Source: an archaeon
GTDB taxonomy: Archaea > Thermoproteota > Nitrososphaeria > Nitrososphaerales > Gagatemarchaeaceae
NCBI GenBank assembly: GCA_021827865.1
Contig: JAKAUC010000009.1
Coordinates: forward strand, 248,001-312,000
Length of the DNA stretch: 64,000 bases
Direction: 5' to 3'
In this document: positions 27,859 to 58,595 of the stretch, piece by piece
How positions within the stretch are numbered: the stretch's first letter is position 1
Layout: each line of letters begins with the position of its first letter
Made by a program: the position numbers and the translations under genes
Notes under the pieces: generated by a model
What the model was told of the DNA's origin: nothing
Database searches by the model: none
Seen by the model: only the letters and a program-made list of their open reading frames with translations

Positions 27859-30800
27859 TTAAACCTGCGGTGGCTGGGTCAGCCCGCCCTTCTTCCTGTA
27901 GGCGAAGACGGCCACCACCAGGGCGACGAAGGCCACGGCCGCAACCGCGTAGACCAGGTCTGACTGCGGCAGGGTCGAGGTCTGGGAGCCGTAGAACGAG
28001 CCGGAGGTGGTGAGCGAGGTGGACGACAGCGTGAGCACGCCGACGTCGGTCCCCTGGAGCAGGGAGAGCTTGGATCCCGTGGCCGTGACCTTGGACACCT
28101 GGGAACCGACCAGGGTGACGGTGGCGTGGTTGATCGTCAGGTCGCCGATGGAGACACCGGACAGGGTGAGGTTGATCCCGGTCACGGTCAGGCTGTTGGC
28201 GCGGATGCCCGAGAGGGTGTACCCTCCGCCGCTGGCCGCCACCAATGGCGCGCTCGCTATGTTGGAGGGGCCCAGGGTGTCGTTGGTGTAGTAGGTGTAC
28301 GGTAGGACGTCGACGTAGGACTCGACGGGGACCACGCTGGCAGCCGACGCCGACTGGCCGCTGACGAAGATCGTCCATGGCCCCGCGGCCAGGGCAGGGG
28401 TGTTACCGATGAACGAGTTGTAGGATGTCAGGGCCGACGGGACCTGGATGTCCCCCTCCCACTCGCCGATGGATGAGTTGTACTGCATCGGGGTCCCGGT
28501 GAGCCCCAGGGCGTCGGTCACGTACGACTCGAAGGTGTACCCCGACGGGATGGCCGTCGCGAAGAACACCCCGGAGGTGACCTGGCTCCCGGTGGAGTTG
28601 GTGACCCGGGCGAGGACCCTGACGGTCTGGCCCTCGTACACCGCAGCCGGGGCCGAGACGTTGTAGGCGAGGGTCGGCGCCGAGACGTAGAACCCGGTGG
28701 TGTAGTTCCCCTGCTGTGTCCCCGAAGTCTGGTTGGCTTCGTAGGAGGAGATGAACTGGATCTTGTAGAACCCCTGGGAGAAGGCGGTCGGTATGGTGTA
28801 GTTCGCCTGGTTGTACCTGAAGAAGTTGAAGACGCCGTACTGGGCGCTGTTGGGGGCCGGCGCCAGGTCCACGGAGGCCATCAGGGTCCCCGACAGGCTG
28901 TAGATCTTCGCGGTGACGTTGGAGGTGTAGACGCCGGTCCCCTGGGCCGTCTGGGTGCTGGCCAGTAGGACCACCTGCTGCCCAGGCGCCGCCGAGGGGA
29001 TGGCCGTGTCCAGGGGGGTCAGCATCACCCCGGTCACCTCCTCCCCGACGTAGAGGTAGGTGGACACGCTCCCGGCCCCGGGGCTCTCGACGACCAGGGA
29101 ATAGGACCCCTGGGGCTGTGAGGTCGTGAGCGTCGTCGTCCCCGAGTACGTCCCCGCGCCGTCCGCGGTCAGGTTGACGTTCTGGACCACTGTCCCCTCG
29201 TAGATGAGGTTGGCCTGGAGGTCCAGGCTGTTGAGGGATGTCCCGTTGGGGAGCTGGGCCACGGCGGTGATAGTGAACGGGACGCCGGGCTGCACCGCGC
29301 TCCCGAACGGGTAGGGGACCGGGGTGGCGATGCCCAGGCTGTCGCCGACGGAGACGTCAGCGATGCCGTAGCCCGTCGAAGTCCCCGAGCTCCCGTAGAC
29401 CTGGACCGTCCAGGACCCAGGAGGGTCGGCCGACCCGACCGTGTAGGACCCGGTCCAGGTGTTGCCGTTGAACGTCAGAGGCACCGAGGCCACGAGGCCG
29501 CTCGGCGCCAGGAGGTTGGCGTTGAACTCCCCGGACGTCACCGGGGTCCCCCCGGGCCCGGTCGCCACCGCCGAGACGGTGAAGCTCCCGCCGTACTCGT
29601 ACTGGGCCGGGGCCGAGGAGGACGTCCCCCTGGTCGTGCTCACGGTGATCTGGATCCCCTGGGACTGGCTCTTGATGGCGGCGGCCAGGTTGGGGAGGTT
29701 CGGCGACCCCAGCCCCGTCACGGTGTTGTAGCCGGGGCCCGCCTGATACTCGCCGTTGAAGCCGAAGGTGACCTGGTTGAAGGCGCTGGCGTACTCCGCC
29801 TTGTTGGAGTAGATAGAGTAAAGGTACGGGTTGAGGAGGCCGAGGTCCCGCCCGACGTACTGGTTCATGTCCGCGGTCATCCCTGCCCACAGCGGTGAGG
29901 CGAGGCTGGTCCCGCCTATGGCGTAGTCCACCCCCTCGAGGACGATCACCAGGCCGGTGTAGGGGTTGGCCACGGCGGACACGTCAGGGGACGCCCTGGT
30001 CGCCGACGAAACCACCCCGGACTGGTAGTAGGGCCTGGCGAAGATGGTGCTGTAGCCCCCTCCGGAGCTTACACCCTGGGCCCCCACGTACTGCGGGGAG
30101 ACGCTCCAGGCTGTCTCTCCCTGGTAGGTCGCCGTGGCGTTGGGGGACAGGGGCGAGCCGGAGGCGGGGGACAGGTACAGGGTCGTCCCGCCCACGCCGG
30201 TGACGAAGGGCGAGGTGGAGGGGAAGTCGGCTGTCACCGTGGTCGTCCCGTCGAAGGCGCCGTTGTCCCCGGAGGACGCGAAGAACGAGATCCCCTCGGC
30301 CGCGCCCTTCTGGAAGTAGTAGTCGAGGTAAGCGTAGTTCAGGAAACCGGCGACGGAGAAGCCCGACTCCCCGAAGGAGTTCTCCCCGAGCCCCCAGCTC
30401 ATGGTCACGACGTTCCCCAGGTGCTTGTTGACGGCCATCTTCACCGCCTGGAAGAGAGCGTTGCTGGCGTTGGAGGCCACCAGGAGGTTGATGTGGGCGT
30501 AGGGGGCGGCGAGGTGGGCGGCTTCGACGTCCAGGGCGACCTCGGCGTCCCAGCCGAAGGTGATCCCGTTGGCGGGCTGGTAGGGGCCCACGGGTATGAC
30601 AGTGAGGTTCACCGGCGGCAGCCCGAACTGCTTGTCGAAGGACGCCACGTCCTGGTAGATGGTCGGGTCACCGTAGGCGTCGATTATCGCGATCGTCTCT
30701 CCCTTCCCGCCGTACCCCTGCGAGATGAGGCCCGTCATGTTGTAGGCCGACTGGATCTCCTTGGGGGTGTAGAAGGTGGCTGCATACTGCATCCCCTGGG

Positions 30801-31050
30801 CGAGGGGGACGGAGTTCGGGAGCTGCGACTGGACCACCTGGGTCCCCTTCAGCTTCCCGAGTATCTCGTAGTGGGGGCTGAAGCTAGGCGCTCCCGTGGG
30901 TGCCGCCGGAGCGGGCGCGGCGGGCGGTGCACCGGCCTGTGAAGCCCTCGGGGAGGCGGCCGCGATGGCGGGGACCGGCTGGAGAACCATGAGCGTGAGC
31001 AAGGCGAGGGCGGCGGCCGGAAGCAGTCTTCGCCCCCCGGAAAAATTCAA
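27859..31050 (-). CDS. Large secreted S53 (sedolisin-like) serine-carboxyl peptidase with C-terminal Ig-like region and TM anchor
   Basis: IAIIDAYGDPTIYQDVASFDKQFGLP, GWDAEVALDVEAAHLAAPYA, FFASSGDNGAFDG, YAIGGTSLASPLWAGM; start placed at TTG 31050 with TATA-like box ~25 nt upstream. Confidence 0.88.
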   Translation of the reverse strand: MNFSGGRRLLPAAALALLTLMVLQPVPAIAAASPRASQAGAPPAAPAPAAPTGAPSFSPHYEILGKLKGTQVVQSQLPNSVPLAQGMQYAATFYTPKEIQSAYNMTGLISQGYGGKGETIAIIDAYGDPTIYQDVASFDKQFGLPPVNLTVIPVGPYQPANGITFGWDAEVALDVEAAHLAAPYAHINLLVASNASNALFQAVKMAVNKHLGNVVTMSWGLGENSFGESGFSVAGFLNYAYLDYYFQKGAAEGISFFASSGDNGAFDGTTTVTADFPSTSPFVTGVGGTTLYLSPASGSPLSPNATATYQGETAWSVSPQYVGAQGVSSGGGYSTIFARPYYQSGVVSSATRASPDVSAVANPYTGLVIVLEGVDYAIGGTSLASPLWAGMTADMNQYVGRDLGLLNPYLYSIYSNKAEYASAFNQVTFGFNGEYQAGPGYNTVTGLGSPNLPNLAAAIKSQSQGIQITVSTTRGTSSSAPAQYEYGGSFTVSAVATGPGGTPVTSGEFNANLLAPSGLVASVPLTFNGNTWTGSYTVGSADPPGSWTVQVYGSSGTSTGYGIADVSVGDSLGIATPVPYPFGSAVQPGVPFTITAVAQLPNGTSLNSLDLQANLIYEGTVVQNVNLTADGAGTYSGTTTLTTSQPQGSYSLVVESPGAGSVSTYLYVGEEVTGVMLTPLDTAIPSAAPGQQVVLLASTQTAQGTGVYTSNVTAKIYSLSGTLMASVDLAPAPNSAQYGVFNFFRYNQANYTIPTAFSQGFYKIQFISSYEANQTSGTQQGNYTTGFYVSAPTLAYNVSAPAAVYEGQTVRVLARVTNSTGSQVTSGVFFATAIPSGYTFESYVTDALGLTGTPMQYNSSIGEWEGDIQVPSALTSYNSFIGNTPALAAGPWTIFVSGQSASAASVVPVESYVDVLPYTYYTNDTLGPSNIASAPLVAASGGGYTLSGIRANSLTVTGINLTLSGVSIGDLTINHATVTLVGSQVSKVTATGSKLSLLQGTDVGVLTLSSTSLTTSGSFYGSQTSTLPQSDLVYAVAAVAFVALVVAVFAYRKKGGLTQPPQV

Positions 31051-31302
31051 CGAAGAAAGCTGTGGACGTCCGAAATATAAGGTAATCCGCGGGAGGCCCG
31101 GGCCTCCCAGGGCCCAGCGGAGGGCACCGGCAGAGCGGACGTCTGGGGGGCACGGCCGCGGTAGCCGGAGGAGCCGTCCGTTCCCATCCGGCCAACCGCG
31201 TTCTGACATTCAGCCCAACAGTGTGACTTCCATGTCGGCTGGAATCGCCCGCGTGAAAAGCAGAAGAGCCTAGTATATCAGGCCCGAACGGAGGACTCGC
31301 CT

Positions 31303-46609: not shown

Positions 46610-48925
46610 CTAGAGGGCGCTGAAATTGTTCGTCCACTGCTGGTAGGCCCGGAGCATGTCGGGGGACACCGAAGGCTTCCTCGTCCTCATTATCTCCTTG
46701 AAGTCGCTCAGGTCGATGGGGCGCGGGGACGACTCCTTGTCGAGGGCGTTGCCGGACTTGAACAGCTCCCTGACCACCCTCAACTGGACCCCCTGGCAGA
46801 TGTCCTTGATGTCGCTCCCCGAATACCCTTCGCTGAGCTTGGCCAGGGTTGGAAGCTCGACGTCTTCCGCGAGGGTGAGCGGCGCGGTGTAGAGCTTGAA
46901 CTGCGCCATGCGGGCGTCGTTGTCCGGGAGGGGGACCAGGATCCTCTTGGAGAACCTGCGAAGGAAAGGAGGGTCGAGGGACCACGGCTTGTTGGTGGCT
47001 CCGATGACGTACAAGTGGAGGTTCTTCCCCTTGTCGTTGATGCCGTCGGTCTCCTTCAGGAACTGGTCCCTGACCCTCACCTCGCCCCCCACCTCCTGGC
47101 CCCTGGTCCCGAGGAGCGAGTCGATCTCGTCGACGAAGACTATGACAGGCTTGTTGTCGCCCAGCATCTTCCTGGCGTTGGCGAAGAGCTTGGCCACGTT
47201 CTTCTCCCCCTCCCCCAGCCACTTGCTCATGATGGAGGCCGCGTCGACAGAGATGAAGTAGCCGTCGATCTCGGCGGCCGTGGCAGCTGCGACCATGGTC
47301 TTCCCGCAGTTGCCGCTCCATACGGCCTTGCCGTTGCGCCTGACGTAGATGACGTGGTTCTGGACAGTCACGTCCCAGACCATGCCCGAGTAGTCCTCCC
47401 ACTGCTCTATGCTGGGCTTGTCGACTCGCGTTTCGCCTCTGCGATATAGGATACTCAGCCTGTAGTTGGCCGTCGTCCGAGTTATCGTCCTCTCCTTTCC
47501 ATCCGCCCCTACGATGGCGGCCGTGGAACCGGCATCCGTGTGGACCACATAGTTGCACGCCATGCCCGCCTTGAGGGTGATTTCCATCAGGTCGTCCCGC
47601 AAGCGCGGCGAGGAAGTTTGGCAACGCACCCTGGTGGCGCCAACCTCGGCTTCGTCCACCTCGTGCGTCCCATCGCCCCGCGCGTAGTACTCCAGGATGC
47701 TCCGCAGGAGGGCGGGGGACAGGTCCTTGATTTCATCCGGAATGTACTTGGTGTATTTGTCGCCGATCGGCCGGAGGAGCTCGTACAGTTGCTTGTTGAG
47801 GACCGTTACGCGCCCGTCTGAAGAGTAATGTGGGTTGAGCCCCCACTTCTTGAGGCTATCGTATGCGAAGTCGAGGAGGTCCTGGTCCAGGTTCCTTATC
47901 CCGACGTGGTAATTGCCTCCCCAGTAGGCGGTATAACCCTCGGCAAGCCAAAGCCCGAAGAACGGGGCCCATTCGGACATGGGTATCCTGATCTCCTCAT
48001 GTTTTGGCCCGCTCCCTGATTCGCGCTGGGGCAGAAGAACGAATTCCCTGTCGATGCCGCGCCACTTGGCATCTTTCTTGTAGTAGGGGTAAGTGCCGCC
48101 GTTGCTCCTTCCGAACACATCACCTGGATGGGCAAAATCGTACTTCACCTTGCCCTGCTGAGCCTTCTTCCCTACCCAGAGCTGATGGTCGGGCGTGACC
48201 ATCAGGCTGACCTGGGTGGACTCCAGGCGGTACATCTTTCCTTCGTAATGATATTGGATCTTTCGTACAATCGGGTGGTACTCGAGTTCGTTCGTGCCGG
48301 GGTTGAGCGTGGCCACGACCTCGTCATCGGCCAGTTCGGTGTATTTCTTCCATCCCCGCTTGGTAAGGATCTCCGTCTGTTCGTCAAAGCATCCTGGCGG
48401 GCCGTAGAGGAGGATGCCCCTGGGCCACCCGAGCTTGAAGAGGTCTGGGCGCAGGTAGGGGAATACGATGGACTCGCGTATCGCCTGCTTGCAGTCTTCC
48501 AGGCCGATGACGTCGTCCCACTTCACGTCAGGCTTCTCGGTGACCACGAGCTCGTTGAAGGACGCCTTCAGCTGCTGCACGACCTGGGGGCCGGCAGGGG
48601 AGTTGGGGCTCGAAGTCGGCGGTGCCCCCGAGCCGGGCTTCCCGACCACGGTCCCCGGGGTCCAGCCGGGCTCCTGTGACGAGTCCGGAGGGAGCAGCCC
48701 GTGGGCCGCCTGGATGGCCTTGACCCTCTCCTGATAGGCCATGGCCCTCTCCGTGTACTGCTTGTTGAGCCTGTAGTCGGGGTAGAGGTGGACCAGCTTC
48801 ACCAGGGTGGAGATGGCCTTCTGGTACATCTGGATGGCCATGCCGTGGGCCCCCTGTGAGTCGAGCCTGATCGCCTCGGAGGCGTACTTCTTCGCGTCGT
48901 CCTCCAGCTCCTTGGCCGCGACCAC
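46610..48925 (-). CDS. cdvC: CdvC (Vps4-family AAA ATPase with MIT domain) interrupted by an intein in Walker A
   Basis: N-terminal MIT (AKKYASEAIRLDSQGAHGMAIQMYQKAISTLVKLV); ILLYGPPG-[intein]-CGKTMVAAATAAE; Walker B VIVFVDEIDSLLG; C-terminal Vps4 region. Confidence 0.95.
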   Translation of the reverse strand: MVAAKELEDDAKKYASEAIRLDSQGAHGMAIQMYQKAISTLVKLVHLYPDYRLNKQYTERAMAYQERVKAIQAAHGLLPPDSSQEPGWTPGTVVGKPGSGAPPTSSPNSPAGPQVVQQLKASFNELVVTEKPDVKWDDVIGLEDCKQAIRESIVFPYLRPDLFKLGWPRGILLYGPPGCFDEQTEILTKRGWKKYTELADDEVVATLNPGTNELEYHPIVRKIQYHYEGKMYRLESTQVSLMVTPDHQLWVGKKAQQGKVKYDFAHPGDVFGRSNGGTYPYYKKDAKWRGIDREFVLLPQRESGSGPKHEEIRIPMSEWAPFFGLWLAEGYTAYWGGNYHVGIRNLDQDLLDFAYDSLKKWGLNPHYSSDGRVTVLNKQLYELLRPIGDKYTKYIPDEIKDLSPALLRSILEYYARGDGTHEVDEAEVGATRVRCQTSSPRLRDDLMEITLKAGMACNYVVHTDAGSTAAIVGADGKERTITRTTANYRLSILYRRGETRVDKPSIEQWEDYSGMVWDVTVQNHVIYVRRNGKAVWSGNCGKTMVAAATAAEIDGYFISVDAASIMSKWLGEGEKNVAKLFANARKMLGDNKPVIVFVDEIDSLLGTRGQEVGGEVRVRDQFLKETDGINDKGKNLHLYVIGATNKPWSLDPPFLRRFSKRILVPLPDNDARMAQFKLYTAPLTLAEDVELPTLAKLSEGYSGSDIKDICQGVQLRVVRELFKSGNALDKESSPRPIDLSDFKEIMRTRKPSVSPDMLRAYQQWTNNFSAL
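47309..48391 (-). mobile_element. Intein with LAGLIDADG-like homing endonuclease domain, inserted in cdvC P-loop (361 aa)
   Basis: Starts CFDEQTEILTKRGWKKYTEL (block A), block B VSLMVTPDHQLWV, LAGLIDADG-like FFGLWLAEGY and LLRSILEYYARGDGTH, blocks F/G VWDVTVQNHVIYVRRNGKAVWSGN|C. Confidence 0.95.
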
Positions 48926-48927
48926 GC

Positions 48928-49788
48928 TCAGTTCCCAGAGCCTCCGTCGCCTAGCTTGACCTTCCCCTGGGCCATCAGCGTGAGCATCGCCTGCTCCACC
49001 TCGTCGGAGGGCATCTTAAGCACAGAGGAAGCGTCCGTTATGTCGACGTTGCCGTCGTGGATGGCTGCGTACTGCAGCACCTGCTCCTCGGCCTGGTCCC
49101 GGGGGTGGGGCGCGTAGAGGGCGCCCAGGACCTGGGAGTCCTCCTCGTCGTCGTCCCCCGCAGCCAAGAGGGGCGTCCGCTCCTGGAGCTCCGGGGCCTC
49201 GCGCTGGAGGACCCTCGGGGAGACCATGAGCGTCCGCTTCATCTCCTCGGCCCTCTCCTCGGCCAGCTTCCTGGCCTGCTCGATGAGCTCCTCGCCGCTG
49301 TCCGTCTGGATGTTGAGCTGTATCCCCGGGGTGACGTTCCCCATGCCGGCCATGGTCTCGCTGAGGGCGCTGCTGATCTCGTCCGAGGCCTGGTCCAGGG
49401 AGGGGGCCATCCCCTGGACTGTCTTGTTGACCTTGCGGAGGACCCTGAAGGCGCTGCTCATGTGGGACATCACGTCCCCGACCTCAGCTATGCTCTCGAG
49501 CCTGAGGACGACCTGGGTCAGGGCGAGCTCGCTGGCGTAGACGACCTTCCCCACCTTCCTTAGCTCCGCCCACTCGTTGGCGTAGACGTTGGCCTTGGAC
49601 TGGTCCTTGGTCTTAATGGCCCTGACTGTGGTGTCGAAGAGGGCCTTCCTCCTCTGCTCGAGCCTCATCCGGATGTTCTCCAGCTCCTTGCGGTGGTACT
49701 CTATCTCTTTGATCGTGGACGTGATCTTCGGCTTTATGGCGTCCTCTCGGCCTATGCCTAGTAGCCTCAGAGGTGCACGGGCGGACAA
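48928..49788 (-). CDS. cdvB: CdvB (ESCRT-III/Snf7-like) with C-terminal winged-helix-like domain
   Basis: KPKITSTIKEIEYHRKELENIRMRLEQRRKALFDTTVRAIKTKDQSKANVYANEWAELRKVGKVVYASELALTQVVLRLESI...; C-term VLQYAAIHDGNVDITDASSVLKMPSDEVEQAMLTLMAQGKV. Confidence 0.92.
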   Translation of the reverse strand: MSARAPLRLLGIGREDAIKPKITSTIKEIEYHRKELENIRMRLEQRRKALFDTTVRAIKTKDQSKANVYANEWAELRKVGKVVYASELALTQVVLRLESIAEVGDVMSHMSSAFRVLRKVNKTVQGMAPSLDQASDEISSALSETMAGMGNVTPGIQLNIQTDSGEELIEQARKLAEERAEEMKRTLMVSPRVLQREAPELQERTPLLAAGDDDEEDSQVLGALYAPHPRDQAEEQVLQYAAIHDGNVDITDASSVLKMPSDEVEQAMLTLMAQGKVKLGDGGSGN

Positions 49789-50005: not shown

Positions 50006-50659
50006 TTAGTAGGAGGTGCCCTCGGTAGAGGTAGCTTCGGCAGACGGGAGAGACGACGGGATGTCCGGGAACTTCTCGCGCATGCGCGTCTCAGCCACCG
50101 CTGAGGCCTCGGCCAAGATTTTCTCGGCGTCCTCGTTGGCGGCTTCGAAGTTCAGGGAGTACCCACCGACCGTTCCTGCGTCCACCAGGATGCTACTTAG
50201 CAGCCCAGAGATCTCGCCGATCTCGCTCTCGGCCTCGGGGAGGACGCCCACCAAGCCTTGCTTGACGTTGCGTATCACCGACATGGCCGGGGTCAGGGTG
50301 ACGACGATGTCGCCCAGTTCCGTGATTGTGTTGAGTCTGAGCACTATCTGCTCCAGAGCGAGCTTGGCCTGCGTGACCATCTTGTTCATCTTTCTGATCT
50401 CGGCCAGCTCGTTCGCGAAGACGGATGCGTGCTGAGTGTCGTGCTTCTGTAGAGAGCTCACGACCTTTGCGAAGATCGAGTTGTCCCTCTCTCTGAGTTT
50501 GGTGGATGTGGAGTCGAGTTTGGCTACTTGGACTTGGATTTGTCGGACTGCGAGGTCGAGCCTCGGCTTCAGGGGTCCGGGATTCCTCACGGAATCCTTT
50601 ACCCGAGTTCCGAAACTCTGGGTGTTTTGCTTTTCCCATTTACCTGCGAACGTAGACAT
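50006..50659 (-). CDS. CdvB paralogue (ESCRT-III/Snf7-like, short form)
   Basis: LKPRLDLAVRQIQVQVAKLDSTSTKLRERDNSIFAKVVSSLQKHDTQHASVFANELAEIRKMNKMVTQAKLALEQIVLRLNTITELGDIVVTLTPAMSVI. Confidence 0.9.
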   Translation of the reverse strand: MSTFAGKWEKQNTQSFGTRVKDSVRNPGPLKPRLDLAVRQIQVQVAKLDSTSTKLRERDNSIFAKVVSSLQKHDTQHASVFANELAEIRKMNKMVTQAKLALEQIVLRLNTITELGDIVVTLTPAMSVIRNVKQGLVGVLPEAESEIGEISGLLSSILVDAGTVGGYSLNFEAANEDAEKILAEASAVAETRMREKFPDIPSSLPSAEATSTEGTSY

Positions 50660-56288: not shown

Positions 56289-58595
56289 TTAAGGTGTAGA
56301 GACCCTGTACGCCTTCCAGCCCGCGGGGCCGACGGCGGCTTCGAAGCCCATCGAGGTGGAGACCCTGACCGTCCCCAGCTTGGTCCAGGAGCCGGCGGCC
56401 GGGTCGAACTCCTCGAGGTTCGTGCTGAGCCGCCTCGCCAGCTCCGCCGCCCTCGGCGGGAAGGCGACGTTCAGCCTGACGGGCCCGGGGGACGAGTTCC
56501 CCAGGCAGACCACCTGCCCCGGCGTGTGGAATGAGATTCCGCGGACCGAGCGGACCCCCGTGTCGACCCGCTCCCAGCCGGCGAAGCGCGCGCTCCCCCT
56601 CGACTCGAGCTTCGTCCCGCTGTAGAACAGCCGCGCCCTGCCTCCCCCCCTCCCGACGAAGGCGGCCGAGTCCCCTCCGGCCCAGAAGCCCGCGGCGAGG
56701 ACCCATTCGAAGTTAGACGAGGCGGCCGGGGCGATGGACCCCCTCTCCGCCCCCTGGGGGAGCCCCAGCTCCCCCTCGAGGAGGCACTGGAGGAACCTGG
56801 CGGCGGCCACGGGGTCGGGGCCGTCGCCGTGGGCTTCCCTGGCTTCGACGTCGACCCAGGACGGGAAGAAGCCGGGAGGAGCTCCTAGCCTGAGGGAGTC
56901 GTCGGCGACCACCCTGGCGGCCTTGGCCAGAGCGAGCCCCCCGACCCCGGCCAGCCCCGTCCTGTAGCAGAGGAGGGCGTAGGCGAGGGCGGCCCTGGTC
57001 CAGACGCCGCCGAGCTGGCCGTCGCCGTAGGAGCCGTTGAAGTACATCAGGTTCGAGGTCGGGACGGACCGGGGTCCGTAGGGGGTGTCGAAGTCCCTTT
57101 CGAGGAGCCTGTGGGCCGCGGCCTGCTCTGCCGAGGCCATGAACGGGTGGCGGAACGCCGCCACGGCCATGTCAGCTGTCTCGTCGGTGCGCAGGCGGCC
57201 GGCGGAGTCGCGGCAGAGGGAGAGGAACCCCCTTTCGTCGAGCAGCTTCTTCCTCACCCGCTCGGATATCAGCTTCGAGCGCTCGAGGAACCTCCCGGCG
57301 TCGTCGTGCCTCGACATGGCCCGGGCCACGAGCGAGGCGCCTTCGAGCCCCCCGGCGACGGCCAGCGAGACCTCGGGGATCTCGTGGGTGGGGTATCCCC
57401 TCCCCAGGCGCCTCCGCCACCCCTGGGGGAGGGCCGGGTCGGTGGCGACCGTGGCGTCCTTCGACGACGCCATGAGGAACGCCCCGAGCTTCTTGACGAA
57501 GGGGTAGGACGCCCTGGACGCTTTCTTGTCCTGGCCGAGCAGCAGGGCGGACGACGCGGCCTGGAGGAGGACGGCGGTCTCGAGGATCCCCGGCCGGGAC
57601 CTGTCGAGGGAGTGCGGGAGGGCCCCGTCCCTGCGCGCCAGGGTCCTGGCCTCCGACTGGACCGCCGAGGCGAGCTTCGGCTCGAAGTAGATGAGCGCCT
57701 TCAGGGACTCGAGCCTGTCGAGGAGGTCGTCGGCGTAGGGCGCGGACCTGACCGCCTCCAGGGCCCAGGCCGCCGCCTCGGCGACCGACGGGTCGGAGCA
57801 GGCGAGCTCGGGGGACGGGGGAGGGGGACGGCCTCCGGCGGTGCGGAGCCGGCCGAACTCGGCCAGGGCCTCCTCGAGCTTCCCCGGGGTGTAGATCGAC
57901 GCGAAGGCGATGTCCCTGGACTCTCCGGGGGGGAGGTCGAGCTCGTGGGCCGAGATGGTGAGCACCTGGCCGGACATCCCGGCGGTCCCTTCGGGGACCT
58001 CGCCGGTGGCGACGGCTTCGAGGGCGCGTGGCTTGCTGGTCGTCAGGTGGTATCTCGACGGCGGCGGGGACGCGCCCACCACCCGGGAGGCAGGCGGGTC
58101 GGACACCTCGTCCATGGCGACGTGGCTCTCCCTGTTGAAGGCGTTGACGCCGAGGGAGCCCCAGCGGGCGTGGGTCTCGAAGTGCGCTCCCGCCACGTCG
58201 GTGACCTCGAGGACCCTGAGTCTCAGCTGGGAGCGGCCCGCGTTCCTCAGGGCTATCCGCCTGACGAACCCCGGAGACGCGCCGGGGAAGAACTCGATGG
58301 ACTGGGCCACTTCGACGTCGAAGACCCTCCCCAGGAGCCTCGCCTCCTCCGGGGCCAGCTTCACCAGCCAGTCGGGCCTCTGCCCCGGGACCACTATCCC
58401 AGCCTGGACCTTGTAGAACCACACCTGCTCGAGGCCGAAGAGCGCCCTCTTCTCCCGCTGCGACTCGAGGGACCTGACAGCCCCGTCGGGGTCCACCTGC
58501 AGCCTGCACCCCCCGGAGTAGAGGGACAGGGGGCGCTTCAGGGCGGAGGACCTGAAGCCGTCGGACCTGGAGACAGACTCGGCTGCGGCGGCCAC
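56289..58595 (-). CDS. Glycoside-hydrolase-like protein (six-hairpin/(alpha/alpha)6 glycosidase)
   Basis: N-terminal beta-sandwich-like region then alpha-helical region; DPALPQGWRRRLGRGYPTHEIPEVSLAVAGGLEGASLVARAMS. Confidence 0.5.
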   Translation of the reverse strand: MAAAAESVSRSDGFRSSALKRPLSLYSGGCRLQVDPDGAVRSLESQREKRALFGLEQVWFYKVQAGIVVPGQRPDWLVKLAPEEARLLGRVFDVEVAQSIEFFPGASPGFVRRIALRNAGRSQLRLRVLEVTDVAGAHFETHARWGSLGVNAFNRESHVAMDEVSDPPASRVVGASPPPSRYHLTTSKPRALEAVATGEVPEGTAGMSGQVLTISAHELDLPPGESRDIAFASIYTPGKLEEALAEFGRLRTAGGRPPPPSPELACSDPSVAEAAAWALEAVRSAPYADDLLDRLESLKALIYFEPKLASAVQSEARTLARRDGALPHSLDRSRPGILETAVLLQAASSALLLGQDKKASRASYPFVKKLGAFLMASSKDATVATDPALPQGWRRRLGRGYPTHEIPEVSLAVAGGLEGASLVARAMSRHDDAGRFLERSKLISERVRKKLLDERGFLSLCRDSAGRLRTDETADMAVAAFRHPFMASAEQAAAHRLLERDFDTPYGPRSVPTSNLMYFNGSYGDGQLGGVWTRAALAYALLCYRTGLAGVGGLALAKAARVVADDSLRLGAPPGFFPSWVDVEAREAHGDGPDPVAAARFLQCLLEGELGLPQGAERGSIAPAASSNFEWVLAAGFWAGGDSAAFVGRGGGRARLFYSGTKLESRGSARFAGWERVDTGVRSVRGISFHTPGQVVCLGNSSPGPVRLNVAFPPRAAELARRLSTNLEEFDPAAGSWTKLGTVRVSTSMGFEAAVGPAGWKAYRVSTP

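Follow-up and report, generated by a model that had tools for sequence, protein, structure and literature searches.

Introduction

P-loop ATPases are classic intein hosts, and most of those hosts function in replication and repair. Class 1 inteins adopt the Hint fold and carry a Cys or Ser at position 1, a block B TxxH motif, a terminal Asn and a Cys, Ser or Thr at position +1; a penultimate His is usual, not obligatory. In class 3 inteins the first nucleophile is an internal Cys, and a Trp-Cys-Thr triplet occupies positions B:12, F:4 and G:5. Cysteine nucleophiles can be redox sensitive. CdvC is the ESCRT motor with a presumed part in the division of the archaeal cell into two.

Inteins that lie in the Walker A motif of a P-loop ATPase have been described for RadA of the Thermococcales and for mycobacteriophage TerL (PMC5790916, PMC5050341). 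The CdvC intein reported here is likewise positioned. Conversely, the RadA elements are mini-inteins, have a different host gene and have been shown to splice conditionally (PMC5790916). TerL1-a also has another host gene, and its insertion site is between the P-loop Lys and Thr (PMC5050341). Phage class 1 inteins that end in Gly-Asn and have a LAGLIDADG endonuclease (P1201, ET08 gp3, terminases, portals) resemble the CdvC intein in their block A start and can be aligned with it over the full length at about 23–34% identity. They also share a VPNH..YVRRNGK.VW.GN-like end of blocks F and G. In contrast, the CdvC intein lies in a cellular gene, for an archaeal ESCRT ATPase. Kelley et al. found that a mycobacteriophage intein with a penultimate Gly splices completely, that changing this Gly to His slows splicing and that a His in block F can substitute for the penultimate one (PMC5050341). 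Older work, as cited in PMC5050341, gave mixed outcomes for other inteins.

Results

An insertion splits the Walker A motif of CdvC

We analysed a window of 64,000 nucleotides from an archaeon of the Nitrososphaerales. An open reading frame on the minus strand (46610..48925) encodes a Vps4-like AAA ATPase precursor of 771 amino acids, intein included, with no internal stop. The start codon is GTG at 48925, and the true start may be 1–2 codons further upstream. The N-extein (178 codons; 48392..48925, minus strand) comprises the MIT domain, a linker and the start of the AAA domain up to GPPG. The C-extein (232 codons plus stop; 46610..47308, minus strand) runs from CGKT onward and includes Walker B, the lid and Vps4_C. 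Between them are codons 179–539, which form an in-frame segment of 361 amino acids with no stop, beginning CFDEQTEIL and finishing AVWSGN. The segment is preceded by GILLYGPPG and followed by CGKTMVAAA. Thus, the first half of Walker A (GPPG; 48392..48403, minus strand) is separated from the second (CGKT; 47297..47308, minus strand), of which the Cys is the +1 nucleophile. The initial annotation had placed an intein at 47309-48391, interrupting Walker A between GPPG and CGKT; the ORF translation and the joined flanks, which restore GPPGCGKT, show that placement to be exact to the base.

The host protein was assigned using profile searches and gene context. Matches to the AAA, AAA_lid_3 and Vps4_C profiles of Pfam were all above cut-off, and the MIT domain scored 28.3 bits, just under its cut-off of 30. 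The CdvC profile NF041006 matched the precursor in three stretches (475.2 bits, E=1e-142) and the joined exteins, a 410 amino acid CdvC, in a single unbroken stretch (497.5 bits, 2e-149); the cut-off of this profile is 650, and every CdvC of this order scores below it. Directly upstream, after a gap of 2 bases, is a cdvB-like ESCRT-III (Snf7) gene (48928..49788, minus strand; PF03357, 27.5 bits, cut-off 27.3) that is probably in the same operon. The domain set and ESCRT-III neighbour identify the predicted host protein as CdvC, the Vps4 AAA ATPase. It has a single copy in the genome (one match at E<=1e-75). CdvA and two tubulin/FtsZ-family proteins are encoded elsewhere. In Nitrosopumilus, the Cdv proteins are found at mid-cell and FtsZ is not (PMC3684127). 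Hence, by analogy, CdvC is probably important for division in this archaeon too. Upstream of the cdvB-like gene, the ORF at 50006-50659 (minus strand) looks CdvB-core-like by eye and has no Pfam match at 0.001. Two large ORFs elsewhere in the window (27859-31209 and 56289-58595, both minus strand; 1116 and 768 amino acids) have no Pfam match at 1e-10.

The insertion is a class 1 intein with a LAGLIDADG endonuclease

The segment at 47309..48391 (minus strand) is assigned as a class 1 intein with a LAGLIDADG homing endonuclease on the basis of profile matches, a predicted structure and orthologues. In profile searches with the precursor, where the initial annotation had looked to intein and LAGLIDADG models, only the former expectation held, and in part. 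The intein N-terminal profile TIGR01445 scored 27.3 bits (cut-off 24.5), while the general intein profile PF14890 (16.9 bits) and LAGLIDADG_3 (18.3 bits, cut-off 22.5) gave suggestive matches below their cut-offs. The AlphaFold2 model of the intein, for which the input was the window and sequences of the genome collection only, has a mean pLDDT of 88.8 and a pTM of 0.88. The model of the whole precursor has a pLDDT of 44. When the intein model was compared with the PDB using Foldseek, the 16 best matches were all endonuclease-bearing inteins or variants thereof (best E 4e-16). They include TliVMA, PhoVMA, PI-SceI, PI-PkoII and PI-PfuI.

The catalytic motifs are in the expected places. Block A, CFDEQTEILTKRGW (48350..48391, minus strand), provides the nucleophile Cys1, which is invariant in 33 family members. 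Block B, TPDH (48185..48196, minus strand), provides T66 and H69; across the same 33 sequences H69 is invariant and T66 nearly so. These three residues are present in 8/8 CdvC inteins, which bears out the blocks A and B recognised initially. The two LAGLIDADG-like helices then noticed were equally well founded. The first, FFGLWLAEGY (47933..47962, minus strand; helix 138–151 of the model), ends with the acid E151. The second, RSILEYYARGDG (47669..47704, minus strand; helix 226–240), ends with D240. Both acids are invariant in the eight CdvC inteins and conserved at >90% across the intein family; together with the PI-SceI-, PI-PkoII- and TliVMA-like fold they mark a LAGLIDADG endonuclease. Blocks F and G, GMVWDVTVQNHVIYVRRNGKAVWSGN (47309..47386, minus strand), contain D340, H346, G360 and N361. 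The block F His H346 is invariant in the eight CdvC inteins, as are N361 and the following Cys+1, also correctly read at the outset. Block F has Asp in 7/8 CdvC inteins (VWDVTV), whereas the family mostly has Cys (VYCVTV). Seven orthologues share the length of 361 amino acids.

Cys1, T66, H69, N361, Cys+1 and the Hint fold seen by AlphaFold2 and Foldseek are the marks of class 1; the usual penultimate His is absent and is replaced by Gly360. A class 3 mechanism is excluded because Cys1 is present and the Trp-Cys-Thr triplet is not: Leu71 is at the Trp position, Asp340 at F:4 and Ser359 at G:5.

The intein has moved between related species

We next consider which relatives carry the intein. Among 46 genomes of the family, mostly metagenome assemblies like the other genomes compared, the CdvC intein occurs in 8 species, all of a single uncultured Nitrososphaerales genus. 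In one of the eight the contig ends soon after the intein. Conversely, the site is empty, with an unbroken GPPGCGKT, in 25 relatives (13 other species of the genus and 12 of other genera); the +1 Cys thus belongs to uninterrupted CdvC itself. Across the order, 314/350 genomes have a CdvC match, and an interrupted signature (E about 1e-100 with an ORF of about 800 amino acids) was recognised only in the window's genus; a few weaker matches, in G282, G297, G313 and G423, may be truncated.

On the tree of cdvC exteins, the pattern of presence and absence needs 6 changes, and well supported branches force at least 5 of them. The nearest cdvC to that of the window (L024) has an empty site. Divergence at four-fold sites also differs between intein and extein. 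For the window and L034 it is 0.14 in the intein and 0.50 in the extein (p 2e-10), for L030 and L034 0.15 and 0.56 (6e-13), and for L031 and L034 0.15 and 0.57 (4e-13). An intein with lower divergence than its surrounding cdvC must have passed between species after cdvC diverged; hence, as judged from these sequences, the CdvC intein has moved horizontally. The window and L033 show no such deficit (54% vs 55% at four-fold sites), and in the deepest intein pairs synonymous divergence equals or exceeds that of the exteins. Thus, not every transfer was recent. No clear drop in divergence was found in the flanks near the insertion site, as co-conversion would leave, so transfers were not very recent or conversion tracts were short. 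A recent transfer from a known virus was also considered and rejected; the best viral identity is 34% and no donor was found.

Selection was assessed from the same pairs. The dN/dS ratio of the intein is 0.06–0.27 in all pairs but one, and the intein is therefore under constraint. The exteins are strongly constrained (0.01–0.13). GC3 is 0.72–0.82 in the intein vs 0.86–0.92 in the extein, with the truncated L035 left aside. The intein of genome G022 (L029) has evolved faster at the amino acid level than other copies, with dN/dS up to 0.27, and was perhaps relaxed after fixation.

Phages commonly carry inteins of the CdvC intein family

In viral contigs, 44 loci matched the intein, and about 30 of these aligned over the full length at 24–34% identity. 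Most start with a C(F/Y)DEQTE-like sequence and end YVRRNGK..W.GN-like, followed by C, S or T. By profile match, the viral hosts comprise, among others, portal, terminase, head morphogenesis, primase and epimerase genes. The intein stretch itself is hit by PHROG family 85 (thymidylate synthase), presumably because inteins were present in the members from which that family was built. In GenBank, 153 phage records match, including the thymidylate synthase of Corynebacterium phage P1201 and gp3 of mycobacteriophage ET08.

Within the archaeal class, 98/400 genomes match a wider intein profile. The hosts of the full-length matches that were read are PurD (at two sites), a Hel308-type helicase, DNA polymerase B and topoisomerase VI B, with UDP-sulfoquinovose synthase, a DNA methylase and a papain-like peptidase as further hosts. 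In the wider phylum, anaerobic ribonucleotide reductase is also a host. Well sampled insertion sites form their own clades in family trees. Inteins in TIGR00375 (PHP-domain) genes, which in archaea we take to be EndoQ-type, form the clade that is sister to the CdvC inteins (support 99/90). These inteins (L147–L151 and L111) occupy one conserved insertion site, have the same ends and length and score 205–233 bits with a model of the CdvC intein. They differ in lying between ALETGLS and SDPPMNW, where there is no P-loop, in having a +1 Ser and in occurring in several families of the phylum.

Another intein of this family is encoded by the same genome as the window (contig 20, 486555-487655; L122), in a Hel308-type helicase. 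It splits Walker A at the corresponding point, between APTA and SGKT. Origin of the CdvC intein from this element, an appealing idea given the shared split point, gains no support from the trees, in which the Hel308 intein is not a sister of the CdvC inteins. Hence, the P-loop was probably hit independently. Judged by profile matches, the genome is intein-rich: outside the window, eight loci (L001–L008) match an intein splicing profile, two of them over cut-off, and they include a translation-factor-like ORF with the intein directly after GHVDSGK.

Two further observations concern related elements. In the same genus, the CDC48-like AAA ATPases L045 and L046 have a different-looking intein (CIVGDSLIALENGG) directly after GPPG, the P-loop position used in CdvC. 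A radical SAM gene on the 84-kb archaeal plasmid P-10H_0 (LC711081.1; L146) contains a further intein of this family, ending YVRRHGKAVWCGN before T. The plasmid is a possible vehicle for spread.

The penultimate glycine is the family norm

The initial annotation had noted that the residue before the terminal Asn is Gly, as is so in 8/8 CdvC inteins, and had taken this as a sign of slow or conditional splicing. Examination of the C-terminal pairs of 66 family members does not bear out the second step. Gly-Asn is present in 62, Leu-Asn in 2 and Ser-Asn in 2. Together with the complete splicing of the phage Gly-Asn intein, and its slowing by a Gly-to-His change (PMC5050341), this means that the Gly has no predictive value for slow or conditional splicing. 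Nor was any sequence feature that predicts conditional splicing found in the CdvC intein.

Discussion

Our data describe an insert in the CdvC P-loop that has the fold of a splicing and endonuclease element, retains its catalytic residues, is missing from relatives, has moved between species and has phage-rich kin. We consider it very probable that this is a mobile class 1 LAGLIDADG intein that persists by homing and that splicing is, most likely, constitutive. We infer that the intein splices. On folding of the precursor, Cys1 would attack the Gly178-Cys bond and the N-extein would then pass to the CdvC Cys at +1. Asn361 would cyclise; with Gly at the penultimate position, the block F His346 would probably assist. 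Joining of the exteins would yield the normal 410 amino acid CdvC with GPPGCGKT. The freed endonuclease probably cuts the DNA of cdvC alleles that lack the intein, at the conserved codons of the P-loop, whereupon the element would be copied in; the scattered presence and the transfer between species support this indirectly. Homing, and a location where only exact loss is tolerated, would allow it to persist.

A different reading is that the intein is a regulatory switch, so that splicing is slow or depends on temperature, pH or redox state and division waits for it. The unspliced precursor can soundly be expected not to bind ATP, because the P-loop is cut between GPPG and CGKT, and so should be inactive. 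Both nucleophiles are cysteines, the intein is under purifying selection in eight species and the P-loop intein of Pyrococcus horikoshii RadA splices conditionally in its native exteins (PMC5790916). We nevertheless think such a switch very unlikely. The penultimate Gly is no sign of it, horizontal spread explains the presence of the intein with no host benefit required, and the genome also encodes the two tubulin/FtsZ-family proteins. Furthermore, close sister species have no intein at all, and division control in the genus is therefore independent of it; this argues against a needed regulatory role, though the intein may have an effect in carriers. The coupling of division to splicing conditions that was first suggested thus finds no support, and the observations are those expected of an element that is mobile, splices and homes. 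The stronger proposal, that splicing is rate-limiting and responsive to the environment, with a selfish element turned into a post-translational brake on ESCRT-driven division in carriers, we regard as distinctly improbable.

It is very doubtful that the intein is instead decaying and splices poorly, so that CdvC would have little activity and FtsZ-family proteins would carry out division. Genes of that family are present and the L029 intein is evolving faster, but across eight species no splice-site or catalytic residue has changed despite large synonymous divergence, the CdvC exteins are strongly constrained and CdvC is single copy. That the segment is an integral extra domain of CdvC is scarcely credible: the open reading frame would allow it, but the 25 empty sites rule out both this and chance, the fold and motifs match inteins, and the same kind of element occurs in unrelated genes.

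The intein is of a known kind, but its host gene cdvC, and with it the insertion site, appears to be new. In mostly open-access literature on inteins together with CdvC, Vps4 or ESCRT and archaea, InBase aside, we found no report of an intein in CdvC. This host is the ATPase that carries out ESCRT remodelling in the Cdv division system. An intein family that also occurs in phages has thus entered a cell division gene, and the nearest kin of the element are the TIGR00375/EndoQ-type inteins. A common reading is also corrected, since in this intein family a Gly preceding the terminal Asn is usual and does not point to crippled splicing. Because sister species with and without the intein exist as a natural mix, its cost or effect can be tested.
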